Source: Schaalia sp. Marseille-Q2122 (GTDB taxonomy: Bacteria; Actinomycetota; Actinomycetes; Actinomycetales; Actinomycetaceae). From it: a DNA stretch of 64,000 nt. The stretch covers positions 186,001 through 250,000 of the forward strand of contig NZ_CAHJXR010000003.1 of the NCBI RefSeq assembly GCF_903645355.1, written 5' to 3'. Below the pieces are notes generated by a model, which worked only from the letters and a program-made list of their open reading frames with translations, did no database searches and was not told the DNA's origin. Position numbers and translations under genes: made by a program. This document shows, one piece after another, positions 3,278 to 64,000 of the stretch (within the stretch, counting starts at the first letter, position 1; the number at the start of each line of letters is the position of its first letter).

Positions 3278-3474
3278 TATTGACGGTATCTGGGGTTCTG
3301 CCCGGATTCCTCTTTGAGTCGCACTGCTCGCTCCTGCGTGCTGGTGCTGACCGCGGGCTCCCTTCCGTTGGAGCTCCGGGCGTCATTCTCTGACCCAAGT
3401 GGTTCTTCCACAGCGGTTATCATGGCGCGCCGGCCCCTGACGGACACCCGTGCGTCCGTAAAGGGGAAAACGGC

Positions 3475-3507
3475 AGACCCTGGCTGACTGACACCAGGGT
3501 CTTTTTT
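3475..3507 (+). terminator. Hairpin plus T-run in the rpsL leader (possible attenuator)
   Basis: A perfect 9-bp stem (AGACCCTGG at 3475-3483 with CCAGGGTCT at 3494-3502) has a 10-nt loop and is followed by a run of T to 3507. This is a classic intrinsic terminator, but it lies only about 48 bases before rpsL and downstream of the best promoter candidate. It may attenuate the str operon or end a separate short transcript. Confidence 0.6.
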
Positions 3508-3554
3508 CATGCTCAGGCCGAAGAAGACCACCAACGGAAAAGACTGGAGTACCA

Positions 3555-3929
3555 GTGCCTACTATTCAGCAGCTCGTTCGCAAGGGACGCAGCTCCAAGC
3601 GCAGCAAGGTCAAGACCCCTGCGCTGAAGGGTTCTCCCCAGCGTCGCGGCGTGTGCACCCGCGTGTACACCACCACCCCTAAGAAGCCGAACTCGGCCCT
3701 CCGCAAGGTCGCTCGTGTTCGCCTCTCTTCCGGCATCGAAGTCACCGCTTACATCCCCGGTGAAGGCCACAACCTGCAGGAGCACTCGATCGTGCTCGTC
3801 CGCGGCGGTCGTGTGAAGGACCTCCCCGGTGTGCGTTACCGCATCATCCGCGGCTCGCTTGACACCCAGGGTGTCCGCGGCCGTCAGCAGGCTCGTTCCC
3901 GTTACGGCGCTAAGAAGGAGAAGAAGTAA
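3555..3929 (+). CDS. rpsL: 30S ribosomal protein S12
   Basis: The 124-residue product is a full-length S12, the decoding-centre protein of the small subunit. The conserved block [15 protein letters not shown] is present, which includes the lysine region altered in streptomycin resistance; it reads as wild type. Translation starts at GTG 3555 after a short GGAG. It is the first gene of the str operon and its stop overlaps the rpsG start (TAATG). Confidence 0.97.
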
Positions 3930-4399
3930 TGCCTCGTAAGGGCCCCGCTCCTAAGCGTCCCCTCGTTGACGATCCCGTATACGGCTCCAAGGTTGTCACC
4001 CAGCTCGTGAACCGCGTGCTCCTCGACGGTAAGAAGACCGTTGCTGAGCGCATCGTGTACTCGGCTCTGGAGTCCGTGCGCGAACGCACCGACCAGGATC
4101 CCGTAACCGTGCTCAAGCGCGCTCTGGACAACATCCGTCCCGCCCTTGAGGTGCGTTCCCGCCGTGTTGGCGGCGCCACCTACCAGGTGCCGGTTGAGGT
4201 CCGCGCTTCCCGCGCAACCACCCTCGCCCTTCGTTGGCTCGTCGACTTCTCGCGTCAGCGTCGCGAGAAGACCATGACCGAGCGTCTGGCGAACGAGATC
4301 CTCGACGCTTCCAACGGTCTTGGTGCCGCTGTGAAGCGCCGCGAGGACATGCACAAGATGGCCGAGTCGAACCGCGCGTTCGCTCACTACCGCTGGTGA
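3929..4399 (+). CDS. rpsG: 30S ribosomal protein S7
   Basis: The 156-residue product matches S7, the primary assembly protein of the 30S head. It begins [11 protein letters not shown] and contains the conserved segment [11 protein letters not shown]. It overlaps rpsL by one base, which implies translational coupling. In E. coli S7 represses its own operon; whether that holds here cannot be seen. Confidence 0.97.
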
Positions 4400-4405
4400 T
4401 TTCCA

Positions 4406-4439
4406 GGAACGACGAGGGCCCCCGGGCTCTCGTCGTTCC
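4406..4439 (+). promoter_or_regulatory. Strong hairpin between rpsG and fusA
   Basis: GGAACGACGAG (4406-4416) pairs perfectly with CTCGTCGTTCC (4429-4439), and the inner GC-rich bases can extend the stem. No T-run follows. It may be a processing or partial termination site that sets the ratio of S12/S7 to the elongation factors. Confidence 0.55.
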
Positions 4440-4481
4440 CTCCACCAGCCACTCACGACACTTCGAGCGAAGGACATTTCA

Positions 4482-6605
4482 GTGGCACTTGACGTGCTGA
4501 CCGACCTCAACAAGGTCCGCAACATCGGCATCATGGCACACATCGATGCTGGCAAGACCACCGTGACGGAACGCATCCTGTTCTACACGGGCATCAACTA
4601 CAAGCTGGGCGAAACCCACGACGGCGCTTCGACCACCGACTGGATGGAGCAGGAAAAGGAACGTGGTATCACCATCACGTCCGCAGCTGTGACCTCCTTC
4701 TGGAACGGTAACCAGATCAACGTTATCGACACCCCCGGCCACGTTGACTTCACCGTCGAGGTTGAGCGCTCCCTGCGCGTCCTCGACGGCGCCGTCGCTG
4801 TGTTCGACGGTAAGGAAGGCGTTGAGCCTCAGTCCGAGACCGTGTGGCGTCAGGCCGACAAGTACGAGGTCCCCCGTATCTGCTTCATCAACAAGATGGA
4901 CAAGATGGGTGCCGACTTCTACTTCTCGGTTCAGACCATCAAGGATCGCCTCCACGCAACCCCCATCGTCATGCACCTGCCTATCGGTGCTGAGAACGAG
5001 TACGAGGGCTCCATTGACCTCGTGACCATGGAGTCCGTGCGTTACCCCGCCAAGGACGAAAATGGTCAGCCCACCATGGGTTCGCTCATCGTTCGTGGCC
5101 CCATCCCGGAAGAACTCCAGGAAAAGGCCGAAGAGTACCGCGACATGCTCATGGAAGCTGCCGCTGAAGGCTCCGACGAACTCACCGAGGCTTACCTGGA
5201 GAACGGTGAACTCACCGTTGAGCAGATCAAGGCTGGCGTGCGCGCCCTGACCATCTCCGGTCGCGCATTCCCCGTCTACTGCGGTACCGCTCTGAAGAAC
5301 ATGGGTGTTCAGCCCGTGCTCGACGCCGTTGTGGACTTCCTCCCCTCGCCCCTCGATATCGCTGCCGTTGAGGGCTTCAAGCCCGGCAATGAAGAAGAGG
5401 GCAACACCGAGGTTCGTAAGGCCTCCGAGGACGAGCCCTTCTCTGCACTCGCATTCAAGGTTGCAGCTCACCCCTTCTACGGCAAGCTCACCTTCATCCG
5501 CGTGTACTCGGGCAAGGTTGAGGCTGGCGCTCAGGTTGCTAACTCCACCAAGGGCAAGAAGGAGCGCATCGGTAAGATCTTCCAGATGCACTCCAACAAG
5601 GAAAACCCGGTGGACGTCGCACACGCAGGTCACATCTACGCTGTGATCGGCCTGAAGGACACCACCACCGGTGACACCCTGTGCGCCATGGACAAGCAGA
5701 TCGTGCTTGAGTCCATGACCTTCCCCAAGCCTGTTATCCACGTCGCCATCGAGCCCAAGTCGAAGGCCGACCAGGAGAAGCTGGGTACCGCTATTCAGAA
5801 GCTTGCTGAAGAAGACCCGACCTTCTCGGTCGAGCTTGACCCCGAGACCGGCCAGACCGTTATCGGTGGTATGGGTGAGCTTCACCTCGACATTCTCGTT
5901 GACCGTATGCGTCGCGAGTTCAAGGTTGAGGCTAACGTTGGCAAGCCCCAGGTTGCTTACCGCGAAACCATCCGCAAGGCGGTTGAGAAGCACGAATACA
6001 CGCACAAGAAGCAGACCGGTGGTTCGGGTCAGTTCGCCCGCGTCATCATTGCTCTTGAGCCTATCGAGGCTGACGCGGAGAAGGATTACGAATTCGAAGA
6101 TCGCGTGACCGGTGGTCGCGTGCCTCGCGAATACATTCCTTCGGTTGACCAGGGCATCCAGGCCGCAATGGAGACCGGCGTTCTGGCTGGCTACCCGATG
6201 GTTGGCGTGAAGGCCATCCTGCTTGACGGTGCCTACCACGACGTTGACTCCTCCGAAATGGCCTTCAAGATCGCCGGCACCATGGCAATGAAGGAAGCTG
6301 CTAAGAAGGCTTCTGCCGTTCTGCTTGAGCCGATCATGGACGTCGAGGTTCGTACGCCTGAAGAGTACATGGGCGACGTTATCGGCGACCTGAACTCTCG
6401 TCGTGGTGCCATCCAGTCCATGGATGAGCAGCACGGTGTGCGCGTTGTTCGCGCACACGTCCCGCTGTCGGAAATGTTCGGCTACGTTGGCGACTTGCGT
6501 TCCAAGACGCAGGGCCGCGCCGTGTACTCGATGCAGTTCGATAGCTACGCCGAGGTCCCCCGGAATGTTGCCGAGGAGATCATCGGAAAGTCTCGGGGCG
6601 AGTGA
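4482..6605 (+). CDS. fusA: Elongation factor G
   Basis: The 707-residue GTPase drives ribosome translocation and, with RRF, ribosome recycling. The G motifs are clear: AHIDAGKTT (G1, near residue 20), DTPGHVDF (G3) and NKMD (G4). Domains II-V follow at normal length. GTG 4482 is chosen because it gives the canonical N-terminus ([21 protein letters not shown]). It is third in the str operon. Confidence 0.98.
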
Positions 6606-6621
6606 GTCCCACAGGGGAGTG

Positions 6622-6675
6622 ACGTTTTGGCCCGTTCAGCGATCTTTCGAGGTTGTCTCGGGCGGGCCAAAATGT
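6622..6675 (+). promoter_or_regulatory. Long inverted repeat in the fusA-tuf spacer
   Basis: TTTTGGCCCG (6625-6634) and CGGGCCAAAA (6663-6672) form a perfect 10-bp stem. It extends to about 13 bp with one G-U pair (6622-6634 with 6663-6675), around a 28-nt loop. A smaller stem, TAGGTG/CACCTA, lies nearer tuf at about 6721-6740. The 178-base spacer probably controls tuf expression separately from fusA, but I could not find a convincing -35/-10 pair. Confidence 0.5.
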
Positions 6676-6783
6676 GGCACCCCACACCAACTGAAAATCC
6701 CTGTAGGATCTCACGCCCTGTAGGTGTTAAAGTACACCTAGCCATAGGCTTGAAAGATCTACCCGAGTCCAGGAGGACACCAA

Positions 6784-7974
<1,191 letters not shown>

Positions 7975-8036
7975 TTCTCTCCCTCTGCAGCGTAGAGCTG
8001 TTGTGAGGGAATAGTTCGGAGGGGTTATCCCCCATG

Positions 8037-8076
8037 AGGGTCCGCCGTGGATGCTATCCACGGCGGACCCTCTTTC
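8037..8076 (+). terminator. str operon terminator
   Basis: A perfect 13-bp stem (GGGTCCGCCGTGG at 8038-8050 with 8058-8070) closes a 7-nt loop and is followed by TCTTTCT. It sits 63 bases after the tuf stop. Confidence 0.85.
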
Positions 8077-8655
8077 TATGTCCTGCCGGTGATTTACTCA
8101 AGGTGCGCAAAAGAGCCGCCCGAATGGACGTGACCCCGTGAGCTGCCTAGTTTGTCCCGTTGAACTGATAGCTCGTATTACGCAAGGGGTTAAGGAGCAG
8201 TTTTACGAGAGGGTAGTGCCTCGTTGCATTGAAGTGCGTGGATATACCTGCGATGTTGATCCTCGCGAGCGTGCGCCCGCTGTTGCTGCCGTTGACATGG
8301 CGTGCTGGGGGAAGGGTAGGGCAGGTCAATTAGGAAAACATAAATTTTTCCTATTGTGGGGCGACCGGGGGTATAAGGTGCCGTGGTGTCTACTTTGCCA
8401 CAGTGGTTGCGCGACATTACTGAAACTGTGAAAATACGGTGATACACCTGGGAAAACGCTGAGTTAGTAAAGGTGTTTAAGGAATAATTTTATGCCTGTG
8501 GCATTCATCTATACGATTTAGCTTTATATTGTGCTCAAATTGTGGCTACATAGATGCATTGATGTTTGCCTAAGCGTGATCGGCATTTGGTGTTGGTGCA
8601 TTAATCGCAGACACTCCGAACAATGTCATTTGTGGGCTGAATGAGGGATACGAAG
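8077..8655. other. Non-coding region before the pilus locus
   Basis: No credible gene is present. The stretch becomes AT-rich toward its right end and should contain the pilus promoter. A perfect 8-bp inverted repeat, TAGGAAAA (8331-8338) with TTTTCCTA (8346-8353), could be an operator or a weak hairpin. No clear promoter consensus could be fixed by eye. Confidence 0.4.
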
Positions 8656-22232: not shown

Positions 22233-22274
22233 GGCTATGGCCCCTCTCCTCGGAGAGGGGCCATAGCCTTTTCT
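22233..22274 (+). terminator. Strong terminator ending the S10 operon
   Basis: GGCTATGGCCCCTCT (22233-22247) pairs perfectly with AGAGGGGCCATAGCC (22254-22268) over a 6-nt loop and is followed by TTTTCT. Because it sits between rpsQ and rplN, the spc genes must have their own promoter. Confidence 0.9.
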
Positions 22275-22326
22275 GTTAGTTTCTGGGGCCGCAGCCTTTT
22301 CTGCCTCTCTTCCCCGTCGGCCGCGC

Positions 22327-22440
22327 CCTCCCCAACTTTTCACACTGCGTTGCAGTTTCCACACCGCATAGGCCCCTGAAACTACAACATCCCTCCCATA
22401 GTCGACTGCCTGTGCCTGTACCCCTGGCCCTCGGTCCCAG
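22327..22440. repeat. Hairpin repeat family A, copy 1
   Basis: First of three direct copies of a unit that contains CCCCAACTTTTCACACTGC followed by a hairpin: GTTGCAGTTTC (22349-22359) with GAAACTACAAC (22378-22388), one mismatch. After the hairpin comes a shared tail including CATAGTCGACTGCCTG and a C/T-rich tract. Next copy starts 174 bases downstream. Confidence 0.85.
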
Positions 22441-22499
22441 CCCTGGCCCTGGCCCTCGGCCTCGCCTCAACCTCAGCCCCGGCCCAGCGCCAGCCTCGC

Positions 22500-22612
22500 C
22501 CTTCCCCAACTTTTCACACTGCGTTGCAGTTTCCACACCGCATAGCCCCCTGAAACTACAACATCCCTCCCATAGTCGACTGCCTGTGCCTGTACCCCTG
22601 GCCCTCGGTCCC
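22500..22612. repeat. Hairpin repeat family A, copy 2
   Basis: Nearly identical to copy 1 over the whole unit including the GTCGACTGCC tail. The spacer between copies is a low-complexity tract made of CCTGGCCCTCGGCCT-like words. Confidence 0.85.
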
Positions 22613-22679
22613 AGCCTGCCTCTGGCCATCGGCCTCGCCCCTCGGCCTCGCCTCAACCTCAGCCCCGGCCCAGCGCCAG

Positions 22680-22748
22680 CCTCGCCCTTCCCCAACTTTT
22701 CACACTGCGTTGCAGTTTCCACACCGCATAGCCCCCTGAAACTACAAC
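22680..22748. repeat. Hairpin repeat family A, copy 3
   Basis: Matches copies 1 and 2 through the hairpin, 186 bases after copy 2. The GTCGAC tail is absent and is replaced by a separate GC hairpin. Confidence 0.85.
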
Positions 22749-22770
22749 GCCCCTCCCATAAGGAGGGGCG
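22748..22770 (-). terminator. GC-rich hairpin downstream of the DUF559 gene
   Basis: CGCCCCTCC (22748-22756) pairs with GGAGGGGCG (22762-22770). It lies about 105 bases past the stop of the leftward nuclease-like gene and may end its transcript, although no T-run follows on that strand. Confidence 0.4.
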
Positions 22771-22874: not shown

Positions 22875-23993
22875 TCAGCGATAGTCGGTGAGGAGCCAAT
22901 GTTGAGGCGCCCGCGAGTGGAATACCTCAGGAGCAACACTTCTCAGATGGGCAAAGAGTTCGGGAGGAGGGCCGAATACTTGCGACGCGGTAAGGTGAAG
23001 GACTTTCCAGCCCTGAGCACTCAGTTGATTATCCCGCATCAGGAGGTCATTGAGATTGTCCTTAATCTGACGATGTTGTTGGCCAAGTTTGGCAACGCCT
23101 TCGATCTCGATGAGCACGCGGATATCAGGAAAGAAAAAATCTGCGAAGTACAGGTGCTCGCCGAAGGAGAATTCAACCTGCGTCTGCCATGGCACGGCAT
23201 TAAAGGTGTATAGGAACCACAGGAATGTGGATTCGGCGATCGATTCGCATGCTGGATCACACATTTGTAGGAGTGTGAGCGCCCTGCGCTTCTTGAATGA
23301 AGATGGCACAGCACTAATCGCGTCAGCCCAATCCTCGCGAAGCTGCTCCGCACGCCGCATGCTTTCGTCCTTATTCCAACGGTCGTAAGTGCTGGCGTGC
23401 CTCATGAGCAGACTCACTTCGGCGACCGCCTCGACCGGCGGAGCGGAACACAGGATATCCCGCGCGGTCTGACGAATGCTGCTTACCGGCATTCCCGCGA
23501 TGTAGTCGGGTGGATCATCCACCGTGTGATCCTCGTGAGTAATGACCTTTGCCCACGGAATGTCGACCCCACTCTCCAGCGAGATTGCGGGATAGCGTGG
23601 CCGTTTACCTGGGCGTCGGTGTGTCCGACGCTCATGAATATGGAGGGGCGAGCGCTTGAGGGGGAGGCCCCGCAGAAGCAACGAAGACTGGTGGCTGAAT
23701 ACTAGGAGGCGTTCGGTGCGGACGGCATGCACGTAGTGTCTGAAAAGTGCAAGATCGCGCCTTTGCTTCCAGTGTGGTGCGGAACTATCGAGATGCTCCT
23801 TGGGAAGATAGAACCCGCGCGTGAGGGCGTAGAAGTTACCAGATTCGATGTCGCGGCGGAAGACCGGGTGGTTGTCGCGGTTTGTTATGACGACCTGACT
23901 GAGGATGGATTCTAGGTTGGGACCCTCAGGAGTAGGAAGCAGCATGGCATCCTGCCGAGTGCTCTCGTAGGTGGATGGGGGTGTGGGATTCAT
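22875..23993 (-). CDS. AbiEi/DUF559-type nuclease-like protein
   Basis: A 372-residue protein. ATG 23993 is preferred because AAAGGAG lies about 10 bases upstream; the frame opens further to 24251, but that part only translates the inverted repeat. Residues about 27-120 resemble the AbiEi-like region (RRDIESGNFYALTRGFYLP, VFSHQSSLLLRGLPL). The C-terminal part, about 237-345, resembles DUF559/Vsr-like PD-(D/E)XK nucleases: E250 and E254 in CESIAES, D285 in FADFFF, and E296/E298 in IEIEG, then LLMRDNQLSAQGWKVLHL. It runs against the ribosomal genes, has its own family of repeats on both sides, and has a paralog at the right edge of the window. No partner toxin is visible. Function unknown. Confidence 0.8.
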   Translation of the reverse strand: MNPTPPSTYESTRQDAMLLPTPEGPNLESILSQVVITNRDNHPVFRRDIESGNFYALTRGFYLPKEHLDSSAPHWKQRRDLALFRHYVHAVRTERLLVFSHQSSLLLRGLPLKRSPLHIHERRTHRRPGKRPRYPAISLESGVDIPWAKVITHEDHTVDDPPDYIAGMPVSSIRQTARDILCSAPPVEAVAEVSLLMRHASTYDRWNKDESMRRAEQLREDWADAISAVPSSFKKRRALTLLQMCDPACESIAESTFLWFLYTFNAVPWQTQVEFSFGEHLYFADFFFPDIRVLIEIEGVAKLGQQHRQIKDNLNDLLMRDNQLSAQGWKVLHLTASQVFGPPPELFAHLRSVAPEVFHSRAPQHWLLTDYR

Positions 23994-24130
23994 ATTCGGC
24001 GCGCTCCTTTGACGTTGTGTAGTCCCCACTGTTGCGCTCGCGAGCCCGGAAAGCACATCAGGATCGATGCCCTGTGGATAAGCGAGGTCGAGCGGGGGGA
24101 CCTGTGGATAACCTTCCAGGGGCACAAGAA

Positions 24131-24206
24131 CAGGGGAGGGGTGTTGCAGTTTGTGGGGGTTATGCGGTGTGGAAACTGCAACGCGGTGTGGAAAGTGTGG
24201 CGAGGG
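24131..24206. repeat. Hairpin repeat family A, inverted copy
   Basis: The reverse complement of this stretch matches the left-hand copies (CCACACCGCGTTGCAGTTTCC, then a hairpin and CCCTCCCC). Here the stem is perfect: GTTGCAGTTT (24143-24152) with AAACTGCAAC (24173-24182). The left and right copies therefore bracket the DUF559 gene as inverted repeats. A partial word GTTGCAGTCTC recurs near 24309. Confidence 0.8.
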
Positions 24207-24538
24207 CGGGGGCGAGGGAAGCTGCTGAGCTAAGCCGGTGAGGAAGCGCACAGCGCCTGCGATTACCGGCTACTTTCGCGAAACTCAGCCGATAGCGTAG
24301 GATAAGGAAGTTGCAGTCTCACGCGTACGCTTGGCATTGGAGTAACTCACCAGCCCAAGTAGCTGAGGCTCGGCTTTCTTCATGCAGAGACCTAGCACCC
24401 TGACGGTGTGCTCGAGTCTGCTTGATGAGAGAACAAGATGCGCAACAAGCGTTGCGTGTTGTCCGTACATGTTCGGCTAGGCTCGCGGGCGGTGTCCCGC
24501 CCGCAGAGAACCGGCTCGACGACAGGAGTCACTGAAAA
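24207..24538 (+). promoter_or_regulatory. Leader region of the spc operon
   Basis: No gene is seen. It must contain the spc promoter since the upstream terminator is strong; TAGGCT near 24477 is a possible -10 but no -35 at ideal spacing was found. A perfect 8-bp hairpin, GCGGGCGG (24485-24492) with CCGCCCGC (24497-24504), lies 34 bases before rplN, followed by an AGGAG ribosome-binding site. Confidence 0.45.
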
Positions 24539-62408: not shown

Positions 62409-62451
62409 TCCAGCTGATCGCCGTCTGAGTCACCTGCCCGCTTGAGGCAGA

Positions 62452-62490
62452 GGCCCCGAGGAACGCGCGCGTTCCTCGGGGCCATCGTTC
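62452..62490 (+). terminator. sdh operon terminator
   Basis: The 32-base stretch 62452-62483 is a perfect palindrome (GGCCCCGAGGAAC...GTTCCTCGGGGCC), forming about a 14-bp stem. A short ATCGTTC follows. Confidence 0.8.
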
Positions 62491-62574
62491 TGCCCGCGCA
62501 TAGAGGCCGTGATCTTTCCTGAATGCCGCGCGGTGTCAGTGTCATGAGTTCTGCCCGGGCATAGAGGCCGTGAT
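62488..62574. repeat. 26-base direct repeat pair
   Basis: TTCTGCCCGCGCATAGAGGC... at 62488-62513 recurs at 62549-62574 with one base changed. It lies at the left end of the non-coding stretch 62409-63229, directly after the sdh terminator. Confidence 0.75.
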
Positions 62575-62589
62575 TGTGGGGCTCTCCAG

Positions 62590-62796
62590 GGTGTCGGAGA
62601 ACATGCGTGATTCTCGCAGTTGGGGTTTGAAGTGTCCCTGAGCTGTCTTTGCTCCGGTCCGACCTGGCCTGGGTCCGTCTTGAAATGTCCTTGGTCTGTC
62701 CTTGATATGGCATGACCTGGCCACGATCTGTCCTGACCTATCGTGATCTATCTGCGGGGCGTCCCGAACTGTCCTCGACCCGTCCTGAATCTCTCC
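62590..62796. other. Low-complexity non-coding tract
   Basis: Degenerate repeats of words like CTGTCCTGACC and GTCCTTGATATGG fill this stretch. Open frames across it give repetitive, protein-unlike sequence, so none is called. Confidence 0.5.
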
Positions 62797-62928
62797 ACGG
62801 CGGCTCTGAACCTTGACTTTTGTGACGGTTGTTGCGTTGTGGAGCATTTGTTGCCTTGTGGAGCAGGTGTAGTGGTCACGCAAGACAACAACTGTCACCT
62901 AACTTCCTTCAGGTCTTTGGCAGGCGCC
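62797..62928. repeat. Hairpin repeat family B, copy 1
   Basis: A 132-base unit repeated 218 bases downstream. It can fold: GTGACGGTTGTTG (62822-62834) with CAACAACTGTCAC (62886-62898), 13 bp with one G-U pair, plus inner TTGCGT/ACGCAA. Inside it the word GTTGCGTTGTGGAGCA recurs as GTTGCCTTGTGGAGCA. Weaker similarity extends to about 62980. Confidence 0.88.
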
Positions 62929-63014
62929 GCTGGTAAGCGCCTCTGGCTGGGCTGGCTGCTTTCTCCGTTTGAAGTGTCCTGGGTTGTGGTTCGGGGGAGG
63001 GGATGAGTGTCTTT

Positions 63015-63146
63015 ACGGCGGCTCTGAACCTTGACTTTTGTGACGGTTGTTGCGTTGTGGAGCATTTGTTGCCTTGTGGGGCAGGTGTAGTGGTCACGCA
63101 AGACAACAACTGTCACCTAACTTCCTTCAGGTCTTTGGCAGGCGCC
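63015..63146. repeat. Hairpin repeat family B, copy 2
   Basis: Almost identical to copy 1 over 132 bases (one difference noted by eye). The stem is at 63040-63052 with 63104-63116. It ends about 84 bases from the stop codon of the adjoining DUF559-type gene. Confidence 0.88.
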
Positions 63147-63229
63147 TCTGGCAGGCGCCTCTGCCTGGGCTGGCTGTTCTCGTAGCATGGTCTGGAGTGT
63201 CTGTCAGTGCCAGCGCGCAGCGTAGGCGG

Positions 63230-64000
63230 CTAGCTCAGTGACATCCATGAATCTTGTAGAGCAATAGGGATGAGCCGGTTCCGCGGGAAGAGATGAGGCG
63301 CCTGCTCACTGAGGAATCTCCGTAAGAGTCGAGGATCGCCCAGGGCAAGCGCAGCGGGTACGTAAATGATCCGCCAGCCCTGACCAGACACATCCGTGCC
63401 TCGCATGAGGAGCTCACGGGCCCTCACTCTTTGCTCAGTTTCTGTTGGGCCTAGCTTGCTCTCGCCTTCGATTTCAATGGCGACGTGTGCAGCAAGCTGA
63501 GCAAAGTCAAGGTAGTAAAAACGTTGCTGTGTTCGCCCCTGAAGGCTGTCGCCCGAAACGCTGCCAACCTGATACTGGAGATCCCAAGCATCAGCGCTAA
63601 AGGCATGGAGGGCCCACAGGAAACTTCCCTCAGCAGGGGATTCACATGCGGGATTCATCAACTCGAGGAGGCGGCGGCCTCGTGCGCGACGATAGCTCAC
63701 GGGCGAATCCTCCATGAAGGTGAGCAGTTCCTGTCCGACTTTCTGCGCCCGTTCGAGGGAGGCAACATCCCCTCGTCGGAACTGGGTTTCTTGACGCAGC
63801 AAAGCGGAACCCACGGCGATTGCCTCGCGTGAGGGCATGAAACGCGCAGAATCGACCAAGGTTGCACGCCTTGAGGTCAGTGGCAACCCTGCAAATTCCC
63901 ACATCTCGGTACTCACGGGTGTTCCACAGTGGCGCTGAATGCTCACAGCGGGAGCCAAGCGCTGTGGACTGAGGCGCACTGCAGGCATGCGAACACGACG
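63230..64000 (-). CDS. AbiEi/DUF559-type nuclease-like protein, second paralog (5' end outside window)
   Basis: The frame is open from 63230 to the right edge; the first Met in the window (63988) is probably internal, since residues upstream remain open and the paralog has about 120 more N-terminal residues. Counting from that Met, it shares with the protein at 22875-23993 the blocks NPACESPAEGSFLWALHAF (E116, E120), LDF (D161), VAIEIEGESKLG (E172, E174) and LLMRGTDVSGQGWRIIYV. These are the expected acidic residues of a DUF559/Vsr-like nuclease fold. Two hairpin repeats lie just 3' of it, as at the first locus. Function unknown. Confidence 0.78.
   Translation of the reverse strand, partial: RRVRMPAVRLSPQRLAPAVSIQRHCGTPVSTEMWEFAGLPLTSRRATLVDSARFMPSREAIAVGSALLRQETQFRRGDVASLERAQKVGQELLTFMEDSPVSYRRARGRRLLELMNPACESPAEGSFLWALHAFSADAWDLQYQVGSVSGDSLQGRTQQRFYYLDFAQLAAHVAIEIEGESKLGPTETEQRVRARELLMRGTDVSGQGWRIIYVPAALALGDPRLLRRFLSEQAPHLFPRNRLIPIALQDSWMSLS

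Follow-up and report, generated by a model that had tools for sequence, protein, structure and literature searches.

AbiEi/DUF559-like nuclease genes of Schaalia and their private palindromic repeats: a candidate gene-plus-repeat element

The stretch of 64,000 nucleotides from Schaalia sp. Marseille-Q2122 that was analysed here (hereafter the window) carries two paralogous nuclease-like genes, and beside each of them lie copies of a palindromic repeat that belongs to that gene and is also dispersed through the genome. Comparison across the genus and the order Actinomycetales reveals the same layout at many related loci, and a cognate pairing between gene and repeat in Schaalia is well supported, and we regard it as very likely. 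The best explanation, to which we assign a probability of roughly 0.55, is a gene-plus-repeat element in which the nuclease would bind and cut its own repeat and so spread it. That the protein itself drives the spread or exchange of repeats has, judged from the sequence comparisons, about an even chance of being correct. The original prediction, an element in which each protein is tied to its own repeat, is supported by these results, and we infer from them the binding, cutting and spreading of the repeat by the protein.

Gene B, the second of the two genes, lies between sdhB and a gene that we take to be tsaD-like; the identities of sdhA and sdhB are backed by Pfam, and the names of the remaining neighbours were assigned by eye. 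The gene is interrupted by the end of the window and extends to the window-equivalent position 64327 (L015:1331-2428), encoding 365 residues and ending in a stop codon at 63230. Downstream of it are two direct copies of a 178-nt repeat, here called family B (Table 1), whose 13-nt arms (GTGACGGTTGTTG and CAACAACTGTCAC) include one G-T pair and enclose a 51-nt loop; the z scores of the two copies, folded as single-stranded DNA, are -2.3 and -3.0, and the predicted repeated hairpin units beside gene B are thereby confirmed. The predicted spacing of 85-105 bases between the stop codon and the nearest hairpin was slightly too short, as the nearest palindromes lie about 107 nt (gene B) and about 115 nt (gene A) away. 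The original note had suggested looking for an inverted family-B copy past position 64000; a third copy does lie there, on the far side of gene B and outside the window (L015:2557-2643), and its orientation is direct. The terminator-like perfect inverted repeat of 16 bp that is present 3' of sdhB (62452-62483) is a landmark outside the element. Just past it is a pair of 27-nt direct repeats (96% identity; 62487-62513 and 62548-62574) that is separate from the family-B copies, and two degenerate 53-nt tandem units (72%; 62627-62732) are situated between the terminator and the family-B copies.

Table 1. Positions in the window of the two nuclease-like genes, their repeats and one landmark.
Feature	Position	Strand	Basis
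Gene B, AbiEi/DUF559-like nuclease homolog	63230..64000, cut by window end	(-)	ORF; homologous to A and C
Copy 1 of family B, 178 nt long, with its palindromic core at about 62817-62904 and the arms at 62822-62834 and 62886-62898	62786..62963	(+)	
Family-B repeat copy 2, 94% identical to copy 1; palindromic core about 63035-63122	63004..63181	(+)	
Terminator-like perfect inverted repeat, sdh operon; landmark outside the element	62452..62483	(.)	
Gene A (372 aa), paralogous to gene B and located within the ribosomal-protein gene cluster	22875..23993	(-)	ORF, homology
Family-A repeat copy 1	22271..22400	(+)	
Family-A repeat copy 2	22445..22574	(+)	
Family-A repeat copy 3, closest to the gene A stop codon	22631..22760	(+)	
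Inverted family-A copy upstream of gene A, closing the bracket	24121..24211	(-)	

Gene A is accompanied by three direct family-A copies downstream (within 22271-22760) and one inverted copy upstream, and three of these family-A copies, when folded, give z scores of -1.6, -5.4 and -4.0. Pfam gave no match for the one additional ORF next to gene A. Protein searches of the 2.71-Mb source genome found five family members including A and B. The third paralog, gene C, is bracketed by a third repeat family of its own, and no flanking repeat family was found for the two that remain (one on contig 9 and a short one on contig 7). All three repeat families are dispersed, with 29 (family A), 14 (family B) and 23 (family C) matches in the source genome, counts in which, as in those given below for the L152 family, one palindromic copy can score twice; by coordinates, the repeat matches adjoining genes A, B and C are those of the gene's own family. 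Families A and B had been described as different in sequence, and no similarity between them was detected. As for the arrangement proposed to be common to genes A and B, the possession of own repeats holds for both, and the minus-strand position and the spacing of 85-105 nt are not general.

The proteins appear to be built as nucleases. In an alignment of 48 proteins chosen from 85, eight residues are invariant (Arg85, Glu254, Gln272, Asp285, Glu296, Lys302, Arg320 and Gly328 in gene A numbering), among them conserved acidic and lysine positions (Glu254, Asp285, Glu296 and Lys302) as in PD-(D/E)XK nucleases. By analogy with that superfamily, we presume that these four residues form the active site. 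At an E value of 0.01, the 48 members match the Pfam families DUF559 (28 members), MTES_1575 (24) and RAP (4) and no others, and hence no transposase family. The score against DUF559 (PF04480) is 23.4 for the homolog at locus L165, above the curated cut-off of 20.6, and 18.0 for gene A, below it (E value of 0.0027); gene B has no DUF559 match in Pfam, and its placement in the family derives from homology to gene A together with weak AbiEi matches, which were obtained for three of the seven proteins scanned and fall mostly in the front part. The AbiEi/DUF559 label first given to these genes thus holds through that homology and those weak matches, and not through DUF559 scores, which are sub-threshold for gene A and absent for gene B. 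A weak sequence match to an endonuclease-like protein of known structure (PDB 3hrl) has an E value of 0.025. Taken from its sequence, the protein is likely DNA-cutting, with an AbiEi-like front and a DUF559/Vsr-like PD-(D/E)XK end.

In order to establish how general the layout is, we searched the genus and found homologs in 33 of 35 genomes at an E value of 1e-15 (130 matches, 125 of them outside the source genome). The sample comprised 80 of those 125, mostly higher scoring, and the five genes of the source genome; one locus with a short flank (L127) was left out, giving 84 homologs. A bracket was defined as a repeat of at least 45 bits common to the two 700-base flanks of the gene. Direct-repeat brackets were present at 50 of the 84 homologs and in 6 of 308 control windows, which were shifted by 3.0 or 4.4 kb and are mostly coding; at a threshold of at least 80 bits, the corresponding values are 34/84 and 0/308. 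The fairer control pairs upstream and downstream flanks taken from different genes of one genome, and none of 202 such comparisons reached 45 bits, indicating that each bracketed gene has a private repeat family. A laxer threshold of 35 bits gave brackets at 53/84 homologs, 23/308 control windows and 2/202 cross-gene comparisons. When either orientation was allowed at 45 bits, 51 of the 84 homologs were bracketed (30 of 55 protein clusters at 60% identity), so that adjacent repeats accompany most homologs, as the original prediction implied. The 33 homologs lacking a bracket in either orientation at this threshold include every member of 25 clusters and the conserved ortholog pair L066/L112.

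No two fetched genes of one genome were found to have a common repeat family, and joint multiplication of gene and repeat is therefore not seen. Two homologs of equal score that lie about 2.1 kb apart (G010:C2:813853-814770 and 815985-816902) may be a recent tandem duplication and would be an exception to the single-gene families. Across the order, 41 of 119 genomes (the source genome included) contain homologs at an E value of 1e-20, and 14 of 29 loci outside the source genome are bracketed (either orientation, 45 bits), a proportion that has no control windows beside it and includes some doubtful reading frames. Carriage on plasmids or phages was considered and rejected for the queries used: tblastn searches with gene A returned nothing from either kind of element, and neither did those with L174 in plasmids or with L165 in phages.

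Repeat family goes with protein. Co-divergence was assessed by matching upstream flanks against the downstream flanks of other genes, such that orthologous position alone does not explain the matches. Repeats match at 45 bits or more in 30 of 44 pairs whose proteins are similar at more than 450 bits, in 16 of 68 at 300-450 bits, in 6 of 188 at 220-300 bits and in 17 of 3186 below that. We then excluded 101 same-genome pairs and 16 pairs with a repeat similarity of at least 200 bits, the latter probably stemming partly from matches between adjacent coding genes and partly from genuine repeats; repeats match in 41 of the 102 remaining protein-similar pairs versus 12 of 3267 others, and none of 2000 permutations reached that difference. 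The test that had been proposed for the element, namely whether repeat family co-varies with protein clade, is thus positive.

For one family, co-inheritance of gene and repeat can be followed across genomes. The repeat of locus L152 has 13-54 matches in all nine genomes that carry an ortholog of at least 61% identity; these look like close relatives and so do not represent nine independent events. Among the 26 other genomes, 23 have no match, two have one and one (G020) has 40. G020 yielded no ortholog at or above 61% identity, and its 40 L152-type matches are thus orphan repeats. Scattering with no tie to the genes, which would have counted against the prediction, is not what is seen: the L152 family tracks its gene, though with orphans in G020, and with decayed repeat copies in S. 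canis. Family B has, by BLAST, one weak 41-nt match beyond the source genome (in G002), and its confinement to that genome was considered and rejected, since a profile search over 172 kb of S. canis (selected stretches, of which one was picked for the weak 41-nt match) detected three decayed B-like sites, compared to none over 156 kb from other species. Family C has no BLAST match in the other 34 genomes, and the flank of its S. canis relative, L113, nonetheless contains a repeat related to family C (98 bits), so that absence at that sensitivity is not true absence.

These data bear on a reading in which an unrelated transposase moves the repeats as ordinary MITE or REP elements and the nuclease genes merely reside in repeat-rich spacers. 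Such an origin would be in keeping with the clustering of several families in the same spacers and with the presence of repeats without the gene in G020; it is at odds with the lack of common repeats between flanks of different genes in one genome and with families that track protein clade and, in one instance, gene presence. We consider it quite improbable, and favor the gene-plus-repeat element.

The repeats themselves have a recognizable anatomy. Palindrome scores of at least 18 were obtained for 29 of 168 flanks versus 3 of 614 control flanks, and the best period is exactly 19 nt in 33 of 168 flanks versus 4 of 614 controls; together with the controls on bracketing, these make chance unlikely. 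The 19-nt period occurs at 20 of the 84 genes, 18 of which are bracketed. A 19-nt unit step is therefore common, and since other steps occur, it is not universal. The L152-type family provides the clearest example, consisting of about three GGATAGGTTA-like units spaced by 9 nt, then a centre resembling AATAA, then about three units in inverted orientation. The number of units differs between copies, and the scattered copies have one whole-array core in common. Stop codons in all six frames are found in 36 of 45 L152-family copies from the fetched loci, compared to 1.7% of random windows, in 3 of 15 family-B copies and, in family A, at a level where the 29 copies resemble random windows; by this measure, a non-coding position is demonstrated for the L152 family only. 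At six loci (L227, L240, L253, L263, L264 and L265), differing repeat families are found side by side in the same spacers, and unit numbers vary among close species.

Alignment of the copies argues against strict selection for a hairpin in families A and B, which was considered and rejected, since changes in the arms are mostly uncompensated. By the same token, the palindromes of these families resemble inverted binding sites for a protein more than hairpins in RNA, and their sequences point to them as candidate sites of that kind. An RNA role for the repeats, whether in termination, in stabilising mRNA or as an antitoxin RNA against the nuclease, would suit the folding (as DNA) of the copies near the stop codon into hairpins. 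Given that stem changes go mostly uncompensated, that copies occur also upstream and far from the genes, and that the window contains no Rfam match at the gathering score, we regard this role as highly improbable.

Binding sites could also serve regulation. The protein might be a self-regulating DNA-binding nuclease whose repeats are operators, with the scattered copies acting as extra sites or as decoys that tame it, and with drift and duplication of the repeats through ordinary recombination rather than through the protein. The variable arms of families A and B are those expected of binding sites, cognate specificity is predicted by this reading as well, and a passage of PMC3985639 describes the binding of AbiEi to inverted repeats in its own promoter. 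Operators would be expected less readily downstream of the gene, where copies lie as well as upstream, or at the many other places in the genome, and the single whole-array core of the scattered L152 copies fits a moving unit. We therefore view regulation as a rather unlikely account of the whole, and return to the element that spreads its own repeat.

Comparison of equivalent sites in close species reveals turnover of both gene and repeat. At the site of gene A, the flanks in S. canis and the window are 97% identical over 5.3 and 4.5 kb, and yet the proteins encoded between them are only about 52% identical; the gene itself (58.6%) provides the sole long match between the cassettes, and the next is 45 nt. 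A profile of family A finds one A-like site in the 172 kb of S. canis, and it is located in L113 rather than beside the gene A relative. With the flanks aligned, the S. canis gene at the gene C site runs in the opposite direction, and at the sdhB-tsaD site of that species gene B is absent and one decayed B-like repeat remains as a solo repeat. Likewise, in the G005 group the gene has about 64-65% DNA identity between species, compared to 78-94% for the matched flanks. Identity in the nuclease part is 93% for the repeat-less pair L066/L112, and 55% and 63% for the bracketed pairs A/L114 and C/L113. Between the source species and S. canis, this unflanked paralog (L066:1985-3115 and L112:5480-6610) is far more conserved than the bracketed ones. 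Another bracketed S. canis homolog (L115:5463-6482) is situated where similarity to the window ends (L115:1-5197 against window 3284-8479, 94.8%).

Scattered copies change too. Between G006 and G005/G013, one scattered array changes subfamily at a unit edge, as repair of a break from another copy would produce. Close genomes yielded no clean empty site for a scattered copy, and differ instead in units, subfamily and larger gaps. The L152 family has no convincing target-site duplication, and clean insertion with target duplication in the manner of a MITE or insertion sequence was not found at any compared site.

The structure of these loci suggests a model for how such an element may operate. 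It would comprise a gene for a protein with an AbiEi-like DNA-binding front and a nuclease end, bracketed by an imperfect palindrome of about 60-115 nt that often consists of inward-pointing 19-nt units, with the same repeat scattered through the genome. Most likely, the protein would bind the inward-pointing units of its own family and cut there, and the break would be repaired from another copy, either by template switching or by gene conversion. Such repair would spread and homogenise the repeat and alter the number of its units. Occasionally, the gene cassette might be inverted, exchanged or lost, with a solo repeat left behind in the last case. Tentatively, and at slightly less than even odds, we propose that at least one actinobacterial order contains a class of such elements, each with a winged-helix PD-(D/E)XK nuclease that recognises a palindromic array of its own, made of units of approximately 19 bp, and spreads it by cutting it, with protein and repeat co-diverging so fast that different protein-repeat pairs occupy the same site in close species. 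If this is true, a common uncharacterised nuclease family would gain a role; and because a candidate target lies next to each protein gene, the loci offer dozens of natural protein-target pairs from which a recognition code might be read.

Homing endonuclease genes likewise encode a nuclease and can spread by breakage and repair of their own target. Unlike in that case, the Schaalia repeats flank the gene and are multicopy, and genes A, B and C were not seen to interrupt any host gene. Among the literature matches listed, judged by title and the start of the abstract, no paper concerns DUF559 genes with private repeats; the texts searched rarely mention DUF559, and none joins DUF559, repeats and transposition. 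The main text of a study of an S. odontolytica transposon library (PMC12369343) contains neither 'AbiEi' nor 'DUF559'.

AbiEi has a winged-helix front domain and binds inverted repeats (PMC3985639), and the Schaalia proteins have a front part that is weakly AbiEi-like. They differ from the AbiE type IV toxin-antitoxin system in that a nuclease-like end follows instead and the ORFs listed around genes A, B and C, most of them named by eye, include no apparent AbiEii-like partner; lacking an apparent toxin partner, they are unlikely to be members of AbiE. VsrA of Caulobacter, a Vsr-like DUF559 protein, is held responsible for an SOS response in a passage of PMC12907096; the likeness is in the DUF559-type protein, and, unlike here, that passage describes no repeats and 'palindrom' does not occur in the main text. 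The best mechanistic precedent is Rpn (YhgA-like, PF04754), a family of PD-(D/E)XK nucleases, whose members are annotated as transposase-like, and for which the abstract of PMC5350276 gives RecA-independent recombination and a template-switch model, with little sequence specificity in RpnA. Rpn belongs to a separate Pfam family, which none of our 48 members matches at an E value of 0.01, and the same abstract mentions no private repeat family (PMC5350276).

The closest likeness in layout is to RAYT (TnpA-REP) genes, which, in the portion of PMC3116915 that describes them, have palindromic repeats in flanking non-coding DNA and further copies scattered extragenically, with a repeat type related to the enzyme; in the searchable text of PMC3733652, on tagged palindromes, the word 'DUF' is absent. 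The Schaalia genes are similarly flanked by cognate repeats that are also scattered in the genome, and the analogy drawn in the original prediction holds at this level. Unlike RAYT, the Schaalia proteins have no match to a Y1 HUH transposase and match DUF559 and MTES_1575 instead, and since the defining transposase was not found, we do not class the element as RAYT/REPIN. The repeats differ as well, often being arrays of units of about 19 nt, and no GTAG or CGTC tag was seen by eye in alignments of families A, B and L152. To our knowledge, RAYT/REPIN is the only pairing described in detail in which a bacterial gene maintains dispersed palindromes of its own. Neither the enzyme nor the repeat of Schaalia belongs to that pairing, and the way in which the element would work has a known counterpart; if this is true, the same layout around another enzyme, unrelated to the first, would imply that such pairings arise repeatedly.
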